Assembly: GCA_947359465.1 (NCBI GenBank)
Contig: OX375872.1
Span: 77,791,100-77,855,099 of the forward strand
Length of the DNA: 64,000 bases
Source: Metellina segmentata
Lineage: Eukaryota; Arthropoda; Arachnida; Araneae; Tetragnathidae
Direction: 5' to 3'
A program made the translations under genes and the position numbers. This document shows, one piece after another, positions 571 to 48,300 of this stretch. The first letter of the stretch is position 1; each line of letters starts with the position of its first letter. Under the pieces are notes generated by a model. That model was not told where the DNA came from, made no database searches, and worked only from the letters and a program-made list of their open reading frames with translations.

Positions 571-3500
571 TCAGTTTGGTCCTTTAATGTTCAAAAGGTC
601 ACGACAGTTCTCAAAGGCCATTTTAGGCAGTGTTTTGGTTAAAATATCTGCCAGTTGCTTCTTTGATTCCACATATTTGACACTTACAGTGTCGTCCTCA
701 AGTTTCTCACGAATGAAATGATGACGAACATCAATGTGTTTGGTCCTTTTGTGATACACTGGGTTTTTGATGAGCTTGATAGCACTTTGATTGTCCACTA
801 GGAGGGGAATTGCATTCTTAATCATTGTGTGCTCACCCAGGTCTTGAAGTAATTGTCGAAGCCACACTATTTCCTTGACGGCAGTTGCCGCTGCAATGTA
901 TTCAGCCTCGGTGGTTGAGGTTGACACGGTTGCCTGTTTCTGGCTGCACCAGGTCACGGGTCCTCTGGAAAGCATGAATACATAACCAGATGTAGATTTT
1001 CTGGTATCAATGTCGTTGGCAAAGTCTGCATCGGAGTATCCTATTGGCTGCAAAGCAGCCTCAGGATCACAAAGATACTCAATACCATATTTCTTGGTAG
1101 CTTTCAGGTATCTGAAGATGCGTTTCACGGCATTCCAGTGGATCTGACCAGGATTTGATTGAAATCTGCTGACCAGGTTCACAGCAAAAGCTATGTCTGG
1201 TCGAGTAGTGCTGGTTAGAAACATCAGTGACCCAATGGCTTGCCGATAGGGGGTCCCTTCTGGAACAGGAATAGATTCTGATGACAGGATAGTACCAGGA
1301 TCAGCAGGTATGCTGTTGGGATGGGCATCTTCCAGGTGAAACCTCTTTAGGAGGCGTTCAATGTATCCTTCTGAGTGGATGAAGATTGAACCGCTGGGGC
1401 TGTGTTGGATCTGTATTCCTACGAAGCACCCGCTGTTGCAAATGGTTGCCTCGAATCTCTTTCCCAGGTCAGAGACTATTTCGTGGAGTATTTCTTCTTC
1501 TTCAGAAAGCAATAATGCATCATCCACATATAGCACTAGAATGACTCTTTTCCCACGAAAATTTCCAGCATAGGCACACGAGTCTGCAGCACTCTGCTGA
1601 AAGCCGAAGCTTGTGAGGAAATCGGAAAAGGTGCGATTCCAGCATCTTGACGCTTGTTTAAGTCCATACAGAGACTTGTTCAGACGACACACTAGGTTAG
1701 CTTCAATATCCAGGCCCAGAGGAGGTTCCATGAAAATCTCCTCCTTTACCTCTCCATAAAGAAAAGCTGTTTTGATATCAATTTGTAAGATGGACCATTT
1801 TCTCTGCACAGCTAGGGCAAGTACTACTCGAATGGTGTCGAATCTTGTTGTGGGTGAGAAAGTCTCTTGAAAGTCGACTCCCTCCACTTGTGCAAATCCC
1901 TTGGCACACAGCCTTGCTTTGAAGCGTTCAATGCTTCCATCAGGGAGTTGTTTGACTCTGAATACCCACTTTGAACCAATGATGTTGGCATTTTCTGGAG
2001 GAGTCACTAGATCCCAGGTGCGGTTTCTGTCAAGGGAATTTAGCTCATCTGTTATTGCAGATTTCCAGAGCTCGGCCTCGGGAGATGTGACTGCTTCTTC
2101 GTAGGTTGAAGGAGTCACAAGGTCAGCAATGTTGACTTCATACCGAGCTGGCTTTCTCAGTAGGTTCCTTGGGCGAAGACCATATTCATCTGTTTCAGGT
2201 GTTGGAATATCAGTTGCCCCTTGACTGTCTGTCACCTCCTGTTCACTCTCAGTAGTGATCTCAACACGAGATGTTGGCGATGGAATGGGTGAATAAGAGA
2301 TGTCTTCATTGAAGGTTACATCTCTGGACACCTTAACAGTCCTTGTGTTGGGATCAAACAGTCTATAGTTTGTGGAGTCTTTCTCGTAACCCACAAAGAT
2401 AATTTTCCTGCTCTTTGGAGCTAGTTTTCTTCGAAGGGCATCAGGAATGTGCATGTAGGCTTCACATCCAAAGACTCGAAGATGATTTAGCTTGAACATC
2501 TTTCCTGTCCATAGTTGGAAAGGAGTGGAGTCTGGTGCTTGAGTAGTAGGGGTCCTGTTGAGGATGTACACAGCAGTGTTCACAGCTTCTGCCCAGAGAT
2601 ACAAGGGCAGGTCTCTGGAGTGCAGCATGGATCTGGCACTCTCTACTATGGTTCGAAGATCCCTCTCAGATCTACCATTTTGCTGAGGGGTGTAGGGTGC
2701 TGTTGTCTCAAATTCAATGCCTTTACTTTTGAGATAGTCACTGAAGTTCAGGTTGGTGTATTCTGTACCGTTATCCACCCTTAGACCCTTTACATCATGT
2801 CCAAATTTGTTGTGACACAGCTGTACAAATTCCTTAAACATTTTTAGAGTATCACTCTTGTGTTTTATAAATCTCACTACTCGGAAACCACTGTAATCAT
2901 CTTTAAAGAGTACAAAGTACCTTGCACCTCCAAGAGATTGTGTTGACATAGGTCCACACACATCACTGTAAATGAGCTCTCCAGGTTTGGTAGCCTTGTG
3001 ATCCCTCTGCTGGAAGGGAAACCTGTGCTGTTTGCCATATTGGCATCCTTCACAGAAAAACTCGTCTTTAGATGAAAAGTCAATCTTTTCAATTACACCC
3101 TTTTTACTTAACTCATAGAGAGATTTGATGTTAAGATGACCAGTCCTTTCGTGCCACAGCTTTAAGCTGTCTTTGGCAGCAGCATGAGCCTCATAGGATC
3201 CAACACATCTGAACAGCATGATGTAGAGGTTGTTGCTAGAGCGTACAGCTGTTCCAACCAACTCGTTGCCCTCATGGATTTTTGCACTATCAAGGGATTT
3301 CGTGATTTCCATTCCTTTGCTGGCGATCACACCCTCAGAAAGAAGATTTCTTTTGAGGTCAGGAACATAGAGGACATTATGAATGGCCCCTTTTTGCCAT
3401 TTTCCAGCAATGAACTTTTCTATATGAATGTTACCCTTGCCCTTGATTGGTAACTCTTGGTTGTTTCCAAGACGAATGCTCTCTTTGGCATCACACTGAG

Positions 3501-4386
3501 TTATGGTTTCAAACATCTTAATGTCATGGCACATGTGGGCAGATGCCCCACTATCAAGAATCCATTGCCCTTCAGAGCTGTCTGGCATTTGGTTCTCCTC
3601 TGCTGTAAAAGCACTGTAACTGGATCTGTTAAATGCACCTTGCCCTCTAGGCTTGGACCTGCACTCACGGGCATAGTGTCCTTTCTTGTGACAGTTGTAA
3701 CAAGTTATTCTTGACTTGTCATTCCCTTTTCTTTGTGCCGGGGGTTCTTGATAAGCAGCAGGTTTACGAGTTCTAGAAGTGATAAGGGCTATGTCAGCTT
3801 CCTCATTCTGCGTTAACGACATCTCCTCATCAATCAATCTTGCTGCGAGGTTGTCCATCGTTTGTCTCTTCTCATCGAGTGATAGCCATGCTTGGCGGAA
3901 GTTTCGGTACTTCGTCGGGAGAGTTCCGAGTATTTTGGCGATGATCATGTTGTCGCCAATTCTTTCCCCACAGTCCAGAATTTGGTTGGCTAGGTTTTCA
4001 ACCCTAGAGATATACTGCATAACACTCTCGTTGGACTCCATTTTTAACTGGTGAAATTTATCAAGCAACAGCATTTTGTTGTAGTCCGACTTCATTTTGT
4101 ACACCGAGTCCAGCTTTGAAAGCATATCGCGAGATGAATCACAGCTTTCGATAAGCGTGATCTGCCGGAAATCCATGGCCGACGAGATGGTGAACATCGC
4201 CACGGCGTCATCTCGTTCCCATTTCTCACGCTCGGCTCCGTCAGTGGCAGGTCGCTCCCTGGTTCCGTTCGCGGTGGAGAAAACTCCTTTTGCTTTCAGC
4301 GCGCATGTGATTTGGAATCTCCATTGTGAGTAGTTCTGTCCATTGAACTTGTTTATGGACGAAACATCTACACCAGCCATTTTCAA
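571..4386 (-). CDS. Copia gag-pol polyprotein, 1271 aa
   Basis: A single uninterrupted frame encodes the whole polyprotein. The N-terminal gag domain (about residues 10-200) is of the UBN2/DUF4219 type. A CCHC zinc knuckle (CYNCHKKGHYAREC) lies at 229-242 and the aspartic protease motif DSGA at 278-281. A GAG-pre-integrase domain follows at about 408-460. The integrase core has a D475, D538, E574 triad. Reverse transcriptase runs from about 790 to 1030 with YVDD at 953-956. RNase H runs from about 1115 to 1240, with candidate acidic residues D1119, E1162 and D1198. The domain order protease-integrase-RT-RNase H is diagnostic of copia rather than gypsy. Length and motifs are normal for the family. 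The start is the first ATG after the 5' LTR and primer-binding site. No premature stop or frameshift is visible. Confidence 0.97.
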   Translation of the reverse strand: MKMAGVDVSSINKFNGQNYSQWRFQITCALKAKGVFSTANGTRERPATDGAEREKWERDDAVAMFTISSAMDFRQITLIESCDSSRDMLSKLDSVYKMKSDYNKMLLLDKFHQLKMESNESVMQYISRVENLANQILDCGERIGDNMIIAKILGTLPTKYRNFRQAWLSLDEKRQTMDNLAARLIDEEMSLTQNEEADIALITSRTRKPAAYQEPPAQRKGNDKSRITCYNCHKKGHYARECRSKPRGQGAFNRSSYSAFTAEENQMPDSSEGQWILDSGASAHMCHDIKMFETITQCDAKESIRLGNNQELPIKGKGNIHIEKFIAGKWQKGAIHNVLYVPDLKRNLLSEGVIASKGMEITKSLDSAKIHEGNELVGTAVRSSNNLYIMLFRCVGSYEAHAAAKDSLKLWHERTGHLNIKSLYELSKKGVIEKIDFSSKDEFFCEGCQYGKQHRFPFQQRDHKATKPGELIYSDVCGPMSTQSLGGARYFVLFKDDYSGFRVVRFIKHKSDTLKMFKEFVQLCHNKFGHDVKGLRVDNGTEYTNLNFSDYLKSKGIEFETTAPYTPQQNGRSERDLRTIVESARSMLHSRDLPLYLWAEAVNTAVYILNRTPTTQAPDSTPFQLWTGKMFKLNHLRVFGCEAYMHIPDALRRKLAPKSRKIIFVGYEKDSTNYRLFDPNTRTVKVSRDVTFNEDISYSPIPSPTSRVEITTESEQEVTDSQGATDIPTPETDEYGLRPRNLLRKPARYEVNIADLVTPSTYEEAVTSPEAELWKSAITDELNSLDRNRTWDLVTPPENANIIGSKWVFRVKQLPDGSIERFKARLCAKGFAQVEGVDFQETFSPTTRFDTIRVVLALAVQRKWSILQIDIKTAFLYGEVKEEIFMEPPLGLDIEANLVCRLNKSLYGLKQASRCWNRTFSDFLTSFGFQQSAADSCAYAGNFRGKRVILVLYVDDALLLSEEEEILHEIVSDLGKRFEATICNSGCFVGIQIQHSPSGSIFIHSEGYIERLLKRFHLEDAHPNSIPADPGTILSSESIPVPEGTPYRQAIGSLMFLTSTTRPDIAFAVNLVSRFQSNPGQIHWNAVKRIFRYLKATKKYGIEYLCDPEAALQPIGYSDADFANDIDTRKSTSGYVFMLSRGPVTWCSQKQATVSTSTTEAEYIAAATAVKEIVWLRQLLQDLGEHTMIKNAIPLLVDNQSAIKLIKNPVYHKRTKHIDVRHHFIREKLEDDTVSVKYVESKKQLADILTKTLPKMAFENCRDLLNIKGPN

Positions 4387-4476
4387 GTTGCCGTTAGGTT
4401 TGAGTTCGCAGATTTTTTTTCAGACAGTGTTTTCTTTTTAGCAACAAATGCTTCCGCTAGTTATTGGCGCGTAGAT

Positions 4477-16220: not shown

Positions 16221-16833
16221 CTGAAGAAAAGGTCTCATAGCTTGCTTTTCAAGGGAGAGGTAGTTATCGGGAGATAATATAGCTGAAATCACAATGCCCG
16301 TCTCTTGATTACAGTTTATTATGTTTTGCAACAGGTCCTCAAATTTTGAGAAGCATTTCTCAAGGCAATATAGGTGTTATTGGTACTTACATGAACCAGA
16401 ATCAAGTCACGATTCTTTTAAAGATGAAACCTTTTCTGTTACACGCTCAATGGTGATTCCTGGAAAAGCTAGAATATATATTACATTACCATGTCATTGT
16501 GATGGCAAATACTGATTTTGGTGGAGTGGTCGCAAACGCGACTGTAGCGCCAAGGCGTTTGTTTTGGTCGCCAAACCAAGATGGCGGAGATCGCCATAAC
16601 AAGATGGCGCGGTGTCCATGTAGCAAAATTCACACTGTGAACCTTTGCATAAATAGATTTGATAGCAATTTCTATGGATTTTATAGTAATTTTTTGCGAA
16701 ATGGTATAGAAAAATGAAACTTACCCTCATTTTGTCGCCACATTATAAATCGCTAGAAAATTCGATGCACGAAAGAATATTCGTATTTTAACGGAGGAAG
16801 ATGCCCGGATAGTCTCTCTCAACAACCTCAATG

Positions 16834-17157
16834 TCACCGTGTTTTAGCGGCAGCAAGTACATCTGCAAATTTGCTACTGCCTACATTAGTTGCGGGAAGA
16901 GTACCAAACTCCTTGAATATACCATCCTTTCGGCAATATGCTGCACATTCCGCTGGTGATCCACGAACAGCTTCAAAATGCGAATCATTGTCAAGCTTCT
17001 TGATCTCGGATATTCTACGCCGTTGTTTAAAATAAATATAGCCCTGACAATGGACGCGTTTAGTCTTCGGACAGATCTCCCTACCGAAGCAAATATATTC
17101 ATGGCAATCCGAGTTAGCGAACGGCTCATTCTCAACTTGAAAAAAAGTAAACACCAA
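16834..17157 (-). pseudogene. CRESS-DNA virus-like Rep (HUH endonuclease domain)
   Basis: The 107-residue frame resembles the N-terminal catalytic domain of circular Rep-encoding ssDNA virus initiators. It has an FTF-type motif I near residue 3, an HCQGYI block matching the metal-binding HLQGY motif II near residue 36, and YCRKDG matching motif III with the nicking tyrosine near residue 74. The spacing is right for the family. The frame stops at 16,834, where a frameshift seems likely, because Rep-like residues go on in another frame for a few tens of codons. The SF3 helicase half is absent, so this is a truncated, broken relic. In viruses this domain nicks and joins the origin during rolling-circle replication. 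Function here is not claimed. Confidence 0.8.
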
Positions 17158-17180
17158 CCTTTACACACAAAAAAAAACAC

Positions 17181-17233
17181 GGTAATTAACTGGTAATTTT
17201 TAGTTAACGTCGTACTAGAGTAACACAACGGGA
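17181..17233 (-). mobile_element. SINE tail fragment inside the Rep element
   Basis: The words GGTAATTTTTAGTTAACG and TCGTACTAGAGTAACACAAC, followed by GGG, match the inverted 3' tail of the SINEs at 20 kb. The fragment lies within the TIR element, upstream of the Rep frame. Confidence 0.6.
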
Positions 17234-17559
17234 TTAAAAAAAAAACAAAAAAAAACGGAGTAGTTAAACAAGAAAAAAATGCACGAGGAACGATAAAACA
17301 CAGACCACGGTGAAACGATAAAAAACAAAGTGGCGGATTAAGCGTCGTTATCTCTTATCGTTAAACGAGAAAAAAAAAATCTAAACCAATCAGAGCACGT
17401 TTAATTTCACTTCAAAACACGGTTTAATTCCAATCAGATAACGTCTTTAAAATCCTAATCTTCTTAATATAGGGTTGCCATAAAAAAACCTAAAGGGAAG
17501 GTTACCACTTTGGCGAGAAAAAAGGACTGTCCCGTTTGCGACCACTCCACCCTGATTTT

Positions 17560-24617: not shown

Positions 24618-25511
24618 TTATTCGTAATGGTCTCTATAACGAGTTGGTTTAGTGATTGTTCTTGTGGACCTCCTCACCACAGTTTGGGAACACGAATTTC
24701 CACTCACCTGGTTGTCAGTCCCATCCGTCTGGTGTGGGTCACTATTACTACCATACAAATCTTCCACAGTCCTTGCATGGATAACACCAGTCGGCATTGA
24801 GGTGTCTTGACGAATATGAATTATATTACGTTTGTACTGTCTACCGCCTGTGTCTTCTACCATATATGATATGGGATTTGGTCCAACTTCAATGATGGTA
24901 CCTTGTGTCCATGGCTCATTCATTTGCTTACGAAACCATATCTTTGTGTCTTTTTTAAATTGTGGATGACTCTTTGTGTGTTTGTTTCCATGCAAACCCT
25001 GTATCTTTTGCCTATTCTTTAGAGAAATTTTTGCATCCTTGATTAGATAGTTGGGTTCAAGGCGATCTGGGTGAGATGGCAAGAATGACCGCAATCGCCT
25101 GCCCATTAGTAGTTCAGCCGGCGAAGGAAGATCAGGTGCTGGCTGGATCCTGTAGTCGAGTAAAACAATATACAGATCTTTACCATCCTGTTCTGCTTTG
25201 ATGAAAGTATTCTTGAATGTTTGTATGGCTCTCTCAACCTGTCCATTTGCTCTGGGAAAATGTGGTGAAGTTATCTTATGTGAGACACTCCACTCGTGAA
25301 AGAATTCTCTAAAAGCTTCCGAGTTGAAAGGGGGTCCTCCGTCACTCACTAATTCTTCTGGAATACCGTGTCTGGCAAAGATAGATTTCATGGCTGTGAT
25401 TACTGCCTGGGCATTGGTGCTGTTCATGTGTTGAACTTCTAAGTATTTCGAGAAATAGTCTATCATGAGGAGGAAGTAACGACCTTTGATCTCCAGAAAA
25501 TCACACGCCAC
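24618..25511 (-). pseudogene. Gypsy integrase core and C-terminus
   Basis: This frame of 297 residues starts inside the integrase core at ACDFLEIKGRYFLLMIDYFS, which has the first catalytic aspartate. LVSDGGPPFNS has the second, and FPRANGQVERAIQTFK has the catalytic glutamate. The C-terminal chromatin/DNA-binding part continues to the stop at 24,618. The upstream HHCC part lies in other frames at 25,584-25,971, cut off by a tandem duplication. Confidence 0.88.
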
Positions 25512-25636
25512 AAAATGATTACTGCCTGGGCATTGGTGCTGTTCACATGTGTTGAACTTCTAAGTATTTCGAAAAATAGTCTATCATGAGGAGGAAGTAA
25601 CGACCTTTGATCTCCAGAAAATCACACGCCACCTTC
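25397..25636 (-). repeat. 119-bp tandem duplication within integrase
   Basis: The stretch starting TGATTACTGCCTGGGCATTG at 25,397 repeats from 25,516. The second copy has two extra bases (TTCACATG against TTCATG) and an A for a G. It duplicates part of the catalytic core and breaks the frame. Confidence 0.9.
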
Positions 25637-25971
25637 TGCCATGGCCGCTGAGGAGGATCTTGCTGTAATAAAGTCTCTTTTTGATTTGCACGTTGGTATT
25701 TCTGGCAAATTTGACACTTACCAACAAATAACTCAACATCTCTGTTGATGCTTGGCCAATAAAAGTACTATCTGGCCTTTGATTTACATGCAACGACTCC
25801 TCTGTGTGATACATGTATTTTTTGTAGGACTTCTTCTCTAGCAAGTGATGGGACGATGAGACGTTGGCCTCGACAAAGTATGCCATCCTTGGTGCAGTAG
25901 AGTTCCTCTTTACAGTGCCAGAAGGCTTGTGCAGCATGTCTTGTTTTGGCCCTGTCAGGCCACCCATTCAT
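25584..25971 (-). pseudogene. Gypsy integrase N-terminal part, frameshifted
   Basis: Overlapping frames hold the zinc-binding integrase region, with HAAQAFWHCKEELYCTKDGI and EEVLQKIHVSHRGVVACKS. In family members the latter is the H of the HHCC motif. Stops and shifts separate it from RNase H on one side and the catalytic core on the other. Confidence 0.7.
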
Positions 25972-26187
25972 AATGTGGAATGTGACATCTTGTAACTCTT
26001 GATCACTAGCTGTTAGTTTAGAGTACTTTTCTTATTGAGATGAGGTCGCAGATGCCAGAAGACATAATGTTACATGTGCCTTATGATCTGTTACTTCCTT
26101 TCTTCATGCATAGCATCAGTCAGCTGCGCTCTAGACAGTGCAACAGCAATTAGCAGCTGTTTTCCTGGAACATAGACCAAAGTTATC

Positions 26188-27687
26188 TCATATCGATTGA
26201 GTCGTAGTAGCATTCGTTGGTCTGGGTGATATTGTGTCATATGGCTTCTTGCTTAAGCCCAATAGTAGTTTGTGGTCAGTTTGCACCACCACAGGTCTCC
26301 CATAGGTGTAGTAATTGAAGTGCTCGAGCCCATAGATAACTGCAAGCAGCTCCTTTTCAATTTGTGCATAACGTTGTTGCGTTTCTGTCAGAGACACTGA
26401 ACCGTAAGCAACAGGTTGGGAGTCTTGAAGCAACACGGCTCCTATACCATACTTGCTGGCATCCACAGATACTGTCACTGGTTTTGCAACATCAAAATAT
26501 TGTAGACATGTTGTTTGCACAATTTGTTTTTTAATTAAATCAAAGTCTCTTTCAGTGTTTTGATCCCATAACCATGGAGTATTCTTCTTTAATAGCTGAC
26601 GTATTGAGTGTGTTAAGTTTGACAGGCTTGGTATGAACTTGGCCAGGTACGTTACCATTCCAAGGAATCTTTGCAAGTCTTCACGACTTTTTGGCACGGC
26701 AAACTCATCAATTGCTTTTACTTTTTGGGGGTCAGGTTCAATACCTCTTTGCGACATCACATGACCCAGGTAATTCACTTGGGTCAAAGCAAGCTGTTTC
26801 TTCTCAATATTGAACTTCAGATTCGCTTCTCTAGCAATTGTGAGAGTTCTGCGCAGTATCTGGCAATGCTCTTCCATCGATGATGAACCCAGTGCTATGT
26901 CATCAAAGTATGGGTTTACTGCAGGCTCCTTGTCGAAGATTTCATCCATGGTACGTTGAAATTCTTCTGTAACATTATTTAGGCCAAATGGTAGGACAAG
27001 AAAACGATACCTTCCCCACGGCGTGGTGAAAGTGGTTAAATATGAAGAGTCTTTGTGCAACGGGAGTTGCCAGAAACCATTCTTAGCGTCTAGGATACTA
27101 AATATCTTGCTACCCTGAAGTTTCGTTAAGAGGCGATCAGCAGATGGGATTGGGTAGTGGGGTCTTTGTATAACCTCATTTAACGGCCTTGGATCCAGAC
27201 AAATTCTCAGCTTTTTAGGGGTGTTGACAACAACCATGTTATTAACCCATTCAGTAGGTTCATCGACTTTTGTGATGACACCTGATTCCACCATGTGCTG
27301 TAGTTCTTCTTTAACTTCATCATGTAGAGCTAATGGTATTTTACGTGGGGCAGCTACATTTGGGATGTAATTTTCCTTCAATTTAATTTCTACCTCACGA
27401 TTCAATCTTCCCATACCACTGAACACATCAGAAAACTCTTTGATGATTTGTTGAGGTGTTTCTACTATTCTACTACAGCCTGTGCTTTTTTTGACATTGT
27501 ATAAGCGCTTAATGAGTCCTAACTGTTCACAAGCAGATAAACCTAGTATAGGACTTGACTCAAGAGTTGTCACAACAAATTTCAAATCCTCTTTAACTTT
27601 ATTAGTTTTGCAAGTAAGTGAACACTCACCCATGATTGGAACTAAATTATTACAGTAATCCAGCACTGGTTGTTTTGTATTTTTCAC
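26188..27687 (-). pseudogene. Gypsy reverse transcriptase and RNase H
   Basis: This open frame of 499 residues starts after the protease and ends in RNase H. RT landmarks are LRICLDPRPLNEVI, FSILDAKNGFWQLPL with the first catalytic aspartate, and YFDD in place of the usual YxDD. RNase H shows VSVDASKYGIGAVLL, EKELLAVIYGLEHF and VQTDHKLL. The frame itself is intact, but stops on both sides detach it from protease and integrase, so the element cannot make a full polyprotein. Confidence 0.88.
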
Positions 27688-27976
27688 CAGTGGTTTTTTT
27701 CCATTTTAAGAGTTCACTTTTAGGGATGACGTTTACTTGAGTACCCGTATCCAATTTGAAAACAACATCATTTTCGTTGACGGCGATTTTTTGATACCAA
27801 ACATTGCGTGACCTGTCTCCCTTTAAAGACTCGACAGTTTTTATCTCTCCTAAAAACATAAATTCCGAGTCGCTTTCGCCATCGTCCTGTTCAACAGCAT
27901 TGATTCGGCGGCTGCTTTGTTGATAATTTGAACGCACTTTCGATCTGCAAACGGAAGCCCAGTGATTTTTTAACAA
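27650..27976 (-). pseudogene. Gypsy gag zinc-knuckle end and aspartic protease
   Basis: The frame begins at the end of a CCHC-like knuckle (LLKNHWASVC; its first cysteines are just upstream). It continues to VFKLDTGTQVNVIP, with DTG as the catalytic site. It overlaps the start of the RT frame by about 38 bp in another register, so a frameshift separates protease from RT. Confidence 0.8.
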
Positions 27977-30070: not shown

Positions 30071-30581
30071 TTAAAAAGCAGCAAATGTAGACTTTCGTAT
30101 TTGATTTCGTCCAATGAATTCATTCACGAGAGGTCTAAGATCCAATTCGTCTAAAACTGTTTGATGCGTATTTAGTATTGCTACATAGTTAAGTCTTTCT
30201 TGTCCCATTGTTGATCTTAGATAGGTTTTAAGACGACGAAGAGAGCTAAAAGATCTTTGAGCTGTACAAGTTGTCACTGGAATGGTTTGCAACAGTTTCA
30301 AACATTTTTTTACTTCTGGAAAGAGATCTCCAAGAGCTTTGTCACTTAAAATGAACTCTTTCAAATTTTTAATTGAATCCAGCGAAACATTTCTTTGTTT
30401 GGAAATATCATGCAACATATTTAGATGCAATAACAGCCGGTCACAATCCAAATCATCTTTGAAAAACTCTTTAGCACTTGGAAATTCCCCAGTTCCATTT
30501 TTCGCTGCTTGAACACACTCTTCTTCGATGGTAACTATATTTTTTATTGCTGAAGATTCAAACCTTTCATTGAGGCAATTT
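30071..30581 (-). pseudogene. Outer hAT transposase, C-terminal dimerisation domain
   Basis: The frame has CDRLLLHLNMLHDIS, the signature TAQRSFSSLRRLKTYLRST and MGQERLNYVAILNTH, ending at a stop at 30,071. These are the hAT C-terminal dimerisation motifs. The N-terminal remainder continues on the far side of the nested element, at 34,445 and above. Confidence 0.88.
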
Positions 30582-45300: not shown

Positions 45301-48300
45301 ATGGCATACTTCAAATAACTCAAGATTTAAACTGTAAAAGAATATATTGTAAATGGTTGTACATCTATGATAAATATAAATTATTTCTTAAATTGCATAT
45401 TTTAGAGAGGATACTTTACTATGTTAGACGTTTCCTTAACCCAAGACGATTTAAATGTATACAGCAAATAAAGAATGAATCTCTACTATTATAAAAGGAA
45501 GTGTTTCTTTGTGTGTATGTGTATTGTCCTGACAAATCTATGGCATTTACAATAATGAAATTTGGCACACAGGTAGTCCCAATTTTTCTATCACGCCCAA
45601 ATTTTAAAATCTTAACTAGAACATTTTAAAATTAATCTATTGGAATTTAATTATTATTGTTTTCCTTAGAATGTCCCGTTTCGTTTGATTTTCTGAGAAA
45701 CGATTTCAGCGGACGAACAAAACAAATAAAATTTTAACTGGAGTTAAGCAGTTCTTTTTTCTATTTCCTAGATTGTTAAGGTAGGTATGTATTTTTTAAT
45801 TAACGTCGTACTAGAGAAACACTACGGTCTATTGACGACGGTCCGGGATCAATCCCCTAAGGGAAAGATCCAAGGACACCACCAGGTAATTTTGAACCAC
45901 GGTCAGATGTCGAGGCAACACCTGAGCTGGCACCCCACTCTCCCGACTTCCACACCAACCCAACGTGAGGACGTTCGATTACAACAGATTTAAGGTGCAC
46001 CAACCACCTCTACACTATACGCTTACAAACATCCAAGAACTGATCCGGATTCGAACCAGGAATCTTCCAATCTAGTAGCTAACACCTTAACCATCAGGCC
46101 GGTTGGTCGGTCCTAGATCGTTAAAGATAGAGTAAAAATTTCAACGGATTTGAAATCTGCGGAAAGTTTTATGTTATATCGATATCTAAAAATATGATTT
46201 TCTTTAAATAAACCATTTCCAAATTGTAACTTTTATTATATTATTTCCTATACGAATTTCATCTTCGTTATCGAGAAATCAGATTCCATTTCCTGTGCTC
46301 ACACAATTCCAGCGAAGGGAAGCAAAACAAATATTTTTTGTTTGACTGGCATTGTTTTTTTATTGTAAAATCGGGATTGTTAAAGATAGAATAGAAAATT
46401 TCAACGAATTTGAAATCTAAGGAAAATTTTACACCAGATAGATACCTTACATTTGATTTTCTTAAAAAAAAAAAAAACCTTTCAATTGAATAACTCTACT
46501 ATTATAAAAGGAATTGTTTGTGTGTGTGTCCACCTCTGTGCAATATCCTGACGAATCTACGGCACTTGCAATAATGAGATTTGGCACAAAGGTACTCCAA
46601 TATTTTTTGCAATTTTTCTGTCGCTTCCAAATTTTACCTAGAACATTTTAAAATTAATTTATTGGAATTTTATTATTTTTGTTTTCCCTAAAATGGCAAC
46701 AGTATAAAGAGATCACAGATTCTAAATTTATTTTTTCGGTTTAATTTTCCGAGCAACGATTTTGTCGACGAACAAAACAAAAATAAAGTTTTAACTTGAG
46801 TTATGTAGTTCTTTTTTCTATCTACTAGATCGTTGAAGATAGAGCAAAATTTCAACGGTCTTGAAATCTGCGGAAAATTTTACATTAGATTTATACCTTA
46901 TATAGACTCATATCCATAAATTAAGGATAATGCCAGCAAATAAAGGTTCAGAAACAAAACAAACTTGACATATTCATAAAGCCCATTTATTAAACAAAAG
47001 ATAAAGAACAAAAAAGATGGTGTATGTATGATACTATTCATAAAAACTACGACTTTTGCTCACTGGAGCAATTACAAAAAATATCGACCTTACAAAAACT
47101 TAACATGACATAGTTGGTATGATGGTTAATACATTGTATGTCTCCCAGACGATGAAATACAGTCCGTACAACGCCTAGGCATGCTGAGGATCAAATTATC
47201 GAGCTGATCTTGGGAAAGATCACTCCACTCATCAAGCAATGCTCTCCGAAGTTCCAGTACACGTGTAGGAGGTGGTTGACGGACTGCAACTCGTCGGCCA
47301 AGCATGTCCCACACATGCTCTATCGGATTTAAGTCAGGTGAGAATGTTGACCATTCCATACGGGTGATATCCTCAGATTCAAAGCATTCGTTTACAATGT
47401 TTGCAAGGTGAGGACGGGCATTGTCATACATAAACACAAATTCTGCGCCCATGGCACCCCTAAACAAAGGTACATGTTGTTCCAGAATGATGTCCCGATA
47501 AATTTGTCCTCTCATAGTTCCGATTTGAACATGTAGATATGTTCTGGAGCCCAGTAAAATTCCGCCCCAAACGAGCAATCCTGCACCACCGTAACGGTGT
47601 CGTTCAATGATGTTGGCTTGGTGGTAGCAGGTACCTGGCGTTCTCCATACGCCGTGAATCAGACTGCAAGTTAAACCTGGACTCGTAGGGAAACATCACA
47701 CAAGCCCACTGTGACGATGTCCACATCGCATGTTGTCTACTCAAGGCTAATCGCTGGCGACAGCGAGTTGCCATGAGCGGAACACATCTGACAGGCCTGC
47801 GAGCATATAGACCAACATGTCCCAAACGTCTGTAAACGATTTGCCTTGAAACTGTCGTACCCGTGGCTGATGATAGCTGACGAGAAAGGTCGGATGCTGT
47901 GCTCCGTCTGCTTCTTTTTTGCAGTTACTGCCAAATACCGGTCGTCATTCGGCATTGTAACTAGGGGGTAACCTGTAGTGTAACGTCTACTGACATTTCC
48001 ATCATTTTGGAATCGTTGCCAAAGCCAGATATGACACTTTGGGCGATTCCAAGTTCCCTTGAAACTTCCGTCTGAGTACGCCCACATTCTAGGCAACCGA
48101 TAATTCTACAAAGTAAAAAAATTAAGCAACATGCGTTGTCTGTGCCATAACTATTCGGTTGTGGCACTGAGTGGCTTACAGAACATGTGCGAACAATTTT
48201 ACTTCTTTGCTACAATTCCTTATATACACCTCTTCTTACATTCTCGTCATTGTGACGTACAATCGGCGTCATCTGATGGCGTCCTGTAATTTGGATATTA

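Follow-up and report, generated by a model that had tools for sequence, protein, structure and literature searches.

The closest described system to the element considered here is a Rep-bearing transposon of the truffle Tuber melanosporum, which, in the accessible text of Liu et al., 2011, has a broken Rep and two transposase frames between 37-bp terminal inverted repeats (TIRs), with no obvious target duplication (PMC3198968). Multi-copy Rep was explained there by segmental duplication or multiple invasions, and most of the near sixty Rep copies each in the salmon louse and in Varroa were ascribed to multiple invasions; a possible self-mobilisation by Rep was also raised in the available portions of that paper (Liu et al., 2011; PMC3198968). 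In arachnids, 19 Rep sequences each are counted in Loxosceles reclusa (brown recluse spider) and Varroa destructor, in the part of the account at hand (Dennis et al., 2018; PMC6069186). For Merlin transposons, the marks given in the accessible sections of a published survey are TIRs that start with GG and are at least 24 bp long and a target-site duplication (TSD) of 8–9 bp; the same survey counts 112 sequences of this group in Araneus ventricosus, a spider (PMC8101967).

We consider here a Rep relic in the genome of the spider Metellina segmentata, which lies in a window of 64,000 nucleotides of contig OX375872.1 (the window is this whole stretch, and positions are counted from its first letter). 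The first-pass annotation of the window had read a 1,032-bp unit as an insertion of the DNA-transposon type with a CRESS-virus Rep domain as its only gene-like content. It had offered two explanations, the capture of Rep by a Merlin-like non-autonomous element or the acquisition of TIR-based movement by a Rep-bearing replicon.

Structure of the element

The unit (16520–17551) is a transposon insertion between inverted repeats, and its features are collected in Table 1. The exact 19-bp TIR that had been noticed at once is the outer part of a longer pair of 26 bp, in which 24 of the 26 positions match; the TIR sequence, GGTGGAGTGGTCGCAAACG, starts with GG. Direct reading likewise confirmed the exact 8-bp TSD said to bound the 1,032-bp insertion, with CTGATTTT present at both flanks. 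At up to three mismatches, the TIR 19-mer occurs at two sites only in the 64-kb window, namely the two ends of the unit, and it gave 0 matches in 100 shuffles. A chance origin of the TIRs and TSD was ruled out by this shuffle control together with the random pairing of flanks described below. The pair of subterminal 19-nt direct repeats, of the TCGCCAAACCAAGATGGCG type, could possibly be a protein-binding site.

Table 1. Features of the Rep-bearing element of M. segmentata, in window positions
Feature	Position	Strand	Basis
Target-site duplication, left, CTGATTTT	16512–16519		Direct reading; in the family, 46/52 exact 8 bp
Left TIR, 26 bp, outer 19 bp same as right	16520–16545	+	24/26 complementary; 0/100 shuffles
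Two subterminal direct repeats of 19 nt, TCGCCAAACCAAGATGGCG type	16568–16609	+	17/19 alike
CRESS-type Rep HUH endonuclease relic, 108 aa	16837–17160	-	Pfam, PDB; stop at 16834–16836
A-rich segment, Rep relic to right TIR	17161–17525		Sequence
Right TIR, 26 bp	17526–17551	-	TIR alignment, shuffles
Target-site duplication, right, CTGATTTT	17552–17559		Direct reading

The Rep frame matches the Pfam family Viral_Rep (PF02407) over residues 4–78, with 43.9 bits against a cut-off of 26 (E 3e-11), and it also matches two solved Rep domains, PDB 2hwt and 6h8o, with a best E of 3.8e-7. These matches bear out the claim of a CRESS-type Rep, which had been drawn from HCQGYI and YCRKDG, both present in the frame; the conserved motifs are presumably the HUH-type and the tyrosine-type motif. 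As gene-like content the frame amounts to less than had been suggested: the endonuclease domain is real, but it is read from the minus strand, it comprises the endonuclease part only, and no methionine occurs in the window copy.

A Pfam scan of this frame and of two further frames of the unit found neither a superfamily 3 helicase domain nor a transposase, and no long IS1595-type frame was seen in the unit by eye. Viral origins carry a nonanucleotide of the NANTATTAC type, for which the element was scanned throughout; it has two one-mismatch matches and no exact one. A scripted scan of the element for an origin stem-loop found no hairpin of at least 8 pairs with a loop of 4–20. The search for close relatives of Rep gave one candidate in the protein collection, with none at E 0.001, and 15 pattern matches in viral contigs, none of them confirmed, so that no close relative was found in either. 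Against NCBIfam the frame had no match, and against PHROGs two, both at E 0.2. A continuation of Rep homology past the stop, in a different frame, was suspected by eye but found no support in databases and was dropped, and an AlphaFold model of the Rep piece made without an alignment (mean pLDDT 46) was set aside.

Other mobile elements are found in the window, each on the minus strand. At 571–4419 there is an open frame of 1282 aa in which the domains of a copia-type retrotransposon (gag, integrase, reverse transcriptase) were recognised, and the length of this open frame suggests a recent insertion. Another retroelement lies at 24618–27705, with an integrase at 24618–25559 and a reverse transcriptase/RNase H at 26188–27705. 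Two transposase relics follow, a hAT dimerisation domain at 30071–30580 (E 1.5e-9) and a DDE_3 transposase at 47126–47695 (E 2.6e-7), the latter of which we take to be Tc1/mariner-like.

Copy number and genomic distribution

The genome searched amounts to 1.67 Gb in 173 contigs. Candidate numbers, which are unchecked and not mutually comparable because the queries differ in length and kind, were 1681 at first look for the whole unit (best 40 scored, all full length at 97–100% identity), 382 for the Rep piece (best 150 scored, all 95–100% identical, on contigs C1 to C13) and 776 for the left end (best 40 scored, all at 99–100%); the scored rows are lower bounds. The frame has no internal stop in 115 of the 150 scored Rep rows and one or two in the other 35 (hand count), and the identical 108 residues are encoded by 25 of the 150, the window copy among them.

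By hand count, 36 of these 150 rows belong to an array on C9, 14 to one on C12 and 4 to one on C11 (28.12–28.17 Mb), while about 96 lie outside these three local clusters. The C9 array (44.43–44.69 Mb; loci L009, L011, L014–L030 and L061) is a single insertion multiplied in a long array: its TSD, GAAAAAAC, is common to all 19 loci fetched there through the whole-unit search, and the spacings are about 2.0, 2.9 or 3.9 kb. In the C12 array (126.57–126.75 Mb; L062) the element recurs about every 6.8 kb, and its flanks, TAAGTTGA and GAATACTA, are not a duplication.

Movement as a unit

Fifty-two distinct insertions were drawn from loci L001–L080, defined by distinct flank pairs and by a TIR pair with at most three mismatches and 950–1250 bp apart; their unit lengths are 1006–1202 bp. 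An exact 8-bp TSD flanks 46 of them and a 7-bp one a single insertion, with none at the remaining five. Loci L048, L067, L068 and L069, which lack such a TIR pair at 950–1250 bp, were dropped, and loci with the same flanking 8-mers were merged as one insertion, so that in at least one case (L031 and L040) a true pair was joined as well. When the right flanks were dealt out at random, the mean was 0.92 TSD matches, about the expected number of fixed points, and the largest 6, against the 46 observed. The TSDs of the family lean A-rich and then T-rich. Among the 11 loci from the whole-unit search that lie outside arrays, ten have exact 8-bp TSDs that differ from one another, and the eleventh lacks a TSD.

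The left, Rep and right segments were all matched in 82 of 84 loci, most of which had been chosen by their match to the Rep piece or to the whole unit; the exceptions are L083 and L084, and the left segment is short or split in L048, L068 and L074. Rep moved as part of the TIR unit, a conclusion that is well supported. The first-pass annotation had placed the Rep sequence within a unit that moved in one piece, and the many copies with the same TIRs and Rep frame and different 8-bp TSDs agree with it; the search that it proposed with the 1,032-bp unit did return many copies in the host genome with TIRs, an 8-bp TSD and an internal Rep. Outside Rep, copies differ from the window copy by less than 1% to about 5% substitutions, and older copies carry many indels; this range and these indels make it probable that the family expanded in more than one period.

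State of the Rep frame

The Rep frame is closed by the same stop in 51 of the 52 insertions; the HUH motif is not preceded by a methionine in 49 copies, and the whole frame is free of one in 48. Given the shared stop and the missing methionines, the breakage of Rep predates the spread of these copies.

Rates of change within the frame depend on how the copies were chosen. In 12 copies chosen by DNA score, a small set with one copy from the C9 array and with a whole-element score that includes the Rep part, Rep had 13 terminal changes in its 324 sites (0.040) and the remaining 708 sites had 27 (0.038); 9 of the 13 in Rep are protein-altering, where the absence of selection would predict 77% (p 0.52). 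In 40 copies chosen by protein score, Rep had 45 changes in 324 sites, and the rest of the element, homopolymers excluded, had 132 in 607 (p 0.009); 29 of the 45 were altering (p 0.08). Selection of the copies by protein score could be the cause of the fewer Rep changes in this set, or there may be a weak constraint on Rep. A separate count in 36 copies, mostly chosen by protein, likewise leaned to fewer changes in Rep. On internal branches 8 of 14 Rep changes were altering and 6 silent, where about 10 of 14 would be expected, a small count. A seemingly strong conservation of Rep in old copies was discarded, as gaps account for most of the low overall identity that L068 shows outside Rep.

Just beyond the Rep stop, at element positions 271–324 (about 16790–16843 of the window), some older copies diverge strongly from the window copy, with 9 of 54 positions different in L066, 6 of 54 in L074 and 5 of 54 in L064; L068, L070 and L079 differ at 1–3 of 45. 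This stretch perhaps marks subfamilies.

Origin and mode of spread

The element is probably a non-autonomous, Merlin-like cut-and-paste element of about 1.0 kb, which took up a broken piece of Rep and depends for its movement on a transposase from another source. An ancestral copy would have held part of a CRESS-virus Rep gene, the simplest source being an endogenous viral relic that the element picked up, and this part would already have been broken before the copies diverged from their common ancestor. The TIRs would be recognised by a transposase provided in trans, which would excise the unit, and reinsertion at staggered cuts 8 bp apart would give rise to the 8-bp TSD; Rep would be a passenger with no role in movement, spread along with the unit. 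A progenitor without Rep, which would document the capture, was not seen among the copies inspected. The exact 8-bp TSDs and the TIRs indicate such a cut-and-paste transposase acting in trans. The terminal marks of Merlin are all present (a TIR that starts with GG and is 26 bp long, and a TSD of 8 bp), and the mechanism is likely to be like Merlin's, an affiliation suggested by the start and length of the TIR and the length of the TSD.

A different history, which we consider unlikely, is that the 1.0-kb unit arose by internal deletion from a longer transposon, autonomous and encoding both Rep and a transposase, with Rep a regular gene of the family. The truffle would provide a precedent, since in the accessible account its 37-bp TIRs enclose two transposase frames and an interrupted Rep (PMC3198968), and the left end drew more candidates than the Rep piece (776 against 382), as if other contents could lie between the same ends, although counts from queries of such different length and kind are not comparable as copy numbers. 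Four left-end loci, picked by eye from the 40 scored and all outside the 150 scored Rep rows, speak against it: one is full length with a TSD, one is an internal-deletion copy with a TSD, and two match bases 1–448 and 1–281 only and continue as other sequence, in which no transposase was recognised among the listed frames (one frame was scanned, with no Pfam match). It is less probable again that the family descends from an autonomous animal transposon with a Rep HUH nuclease and a DDE transposase, in which Rep multiplied the copies and of which the 1.0-kb units are deletion derivatives. A functional Rep endonuclease that helps to move or copy the element, for instance through nicking and a peel-and-paste mode of copying, is more improbable still. 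The frame is open in 115 of the 150 scored rows and protein-identical in 25, the HUH-type and tyrosine-type motifs are kept in the window copy, and protein-chosen copies change less in Rep than outside it; yet young copies differ little, so that open frames say little, DNA-chosen copies change at the background rate, 49 of 52 lack a methionine before the HUH motif, and there is neither a helicase nor a viral origin among the features found. TIRs with exact 8-bp TSDs are moreover the products of DDE-type cut-and-paste and not of HUH rolling-circle transposition. A transposon powered by Rep is not supported and is improbable.

The family could also have arisen without transposition, from independent integrations of related viruses beside chance TIRs or from the growth of tandem arrays only. 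Arrays do exist on C9, C12 and C11 (36, 14 and 4 of the 150 rows), and the TSD of the C9 array is shared by 19 of 19 loci, but about 96 of the 150 scored rows lie elsewhere, ten of 11 non-array loci have exact and different TSDs, and in 82 of 84 loci, mostly chosen by Rep or whole-unit match, Rep is matched along with both ends. Such an origin is scarcely credible, and independent viral integrations were rejected for the dispersed copies on account of their different TSDs. A further question concerns the label only and is compatible with a captured Rep moved in trans: the element may belong to another superfamily with 8-bp TSDs, hAT or P, in place of Merlin, an assignment that is possible but doubtful. 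TSDs of 8 bp are common to hAT and P elements, and the window also contains the relic of a hAT dimerisation domain (30071–30580), though 12.5 kb from the element and with no link seen, and hAT and P TIRs usually start otherwise than GG. The GG start of the element is that of Merlin families, in the accessible text on these (PMC8101967). The capture of Rep by a non-autonomous Merlin-like element, one of the two explanations of the first-pass annotation, fits these observations. The other, a Rep replicon that gained TIR-based movement, is disfavoured because Rep is broken in a shared way, mostly without a start codon, with no helicase and no recognisable origin, and because it drifts like the rest of the element in the DNA-chosen copies.

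Significance

In this family, the TSDs are proof of movement, and a single capture followed by ordinary transposition would explain the 150 scored Rep copies and perhaps hundreds. Counts of endogenous Rep sequences can hence overstate the number of infections, as many look-alike relics need not mean many infections. For the multi-copy Rep relics of Varroa, the salmon louse and Loxosceles, TIRs and TSDs outside the Rep piece offer a simple test.

Comparison with known systems

Helitrons are eukaryotic mobile elements with an HUH-type nuclease domain, and they are not known to have TIRs or a TSD. The spider element has both, and differs from a Helitron in this. With Merlin, in the part of the description available, it shares a TIR that starts with GG and exceeds 24 bp and an 8-bp TSD, and it differs in carrying a fragment of viral Rep and no recognised IS1595-type transposase (PMC8101967). 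The endogenous CRESS or circoviral Rep sequences of arachnids are alike in that many copies of a Rep fragment occur in an arthropod genome; the stem ‘transpos’ is absent from the main text of the arachnid account (PMC6069186), whereas the copies described here sit in TIR units with TSDs. The accessible parts of two accounts of arthropod CRESS sequences likewise contain no TIR unit around Rep (PMC6186406; PMC4573495). In a literature search whose scope was short of most subscription papers and of Repbase entries, and which covered some sources in part, there was no description of the spider element and no Rep-bearing TIR element other than that of the truffle.

The truffle transposon is the nearest parallel, as there too a broken Rep lies between TIRs in dozens of dispersed and nearly identical copies in a eukaryotic genome. 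The first-pass annotation had set the spider unit against earlier views of Rep relics as random integrations; the duplication and invasion readings of Liu et al., 2011 do provide that contrast, but a Rep-bearing TIR transposon was already published in the same paper, as its accessible text makes clear (PMC3198968). From what is available of that description, the two elements differ in their termini, with 37-bp TIRs and no obvious TSD in T. melanosporum and 26-bp TIRs and an exact 8-bp TSD in 46 of 52 insertions in the spider, and in their contents, with a geminivirus-like Rep and transposase frames in the former and a Rep of the Viral_Rep (PF02407) type and no recognised transposase frame in the latter. 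The case belongs to a kind already known, in which a TIR transposon spreads a viral relic that it captured, and it stands out by unusually clean TSDs.
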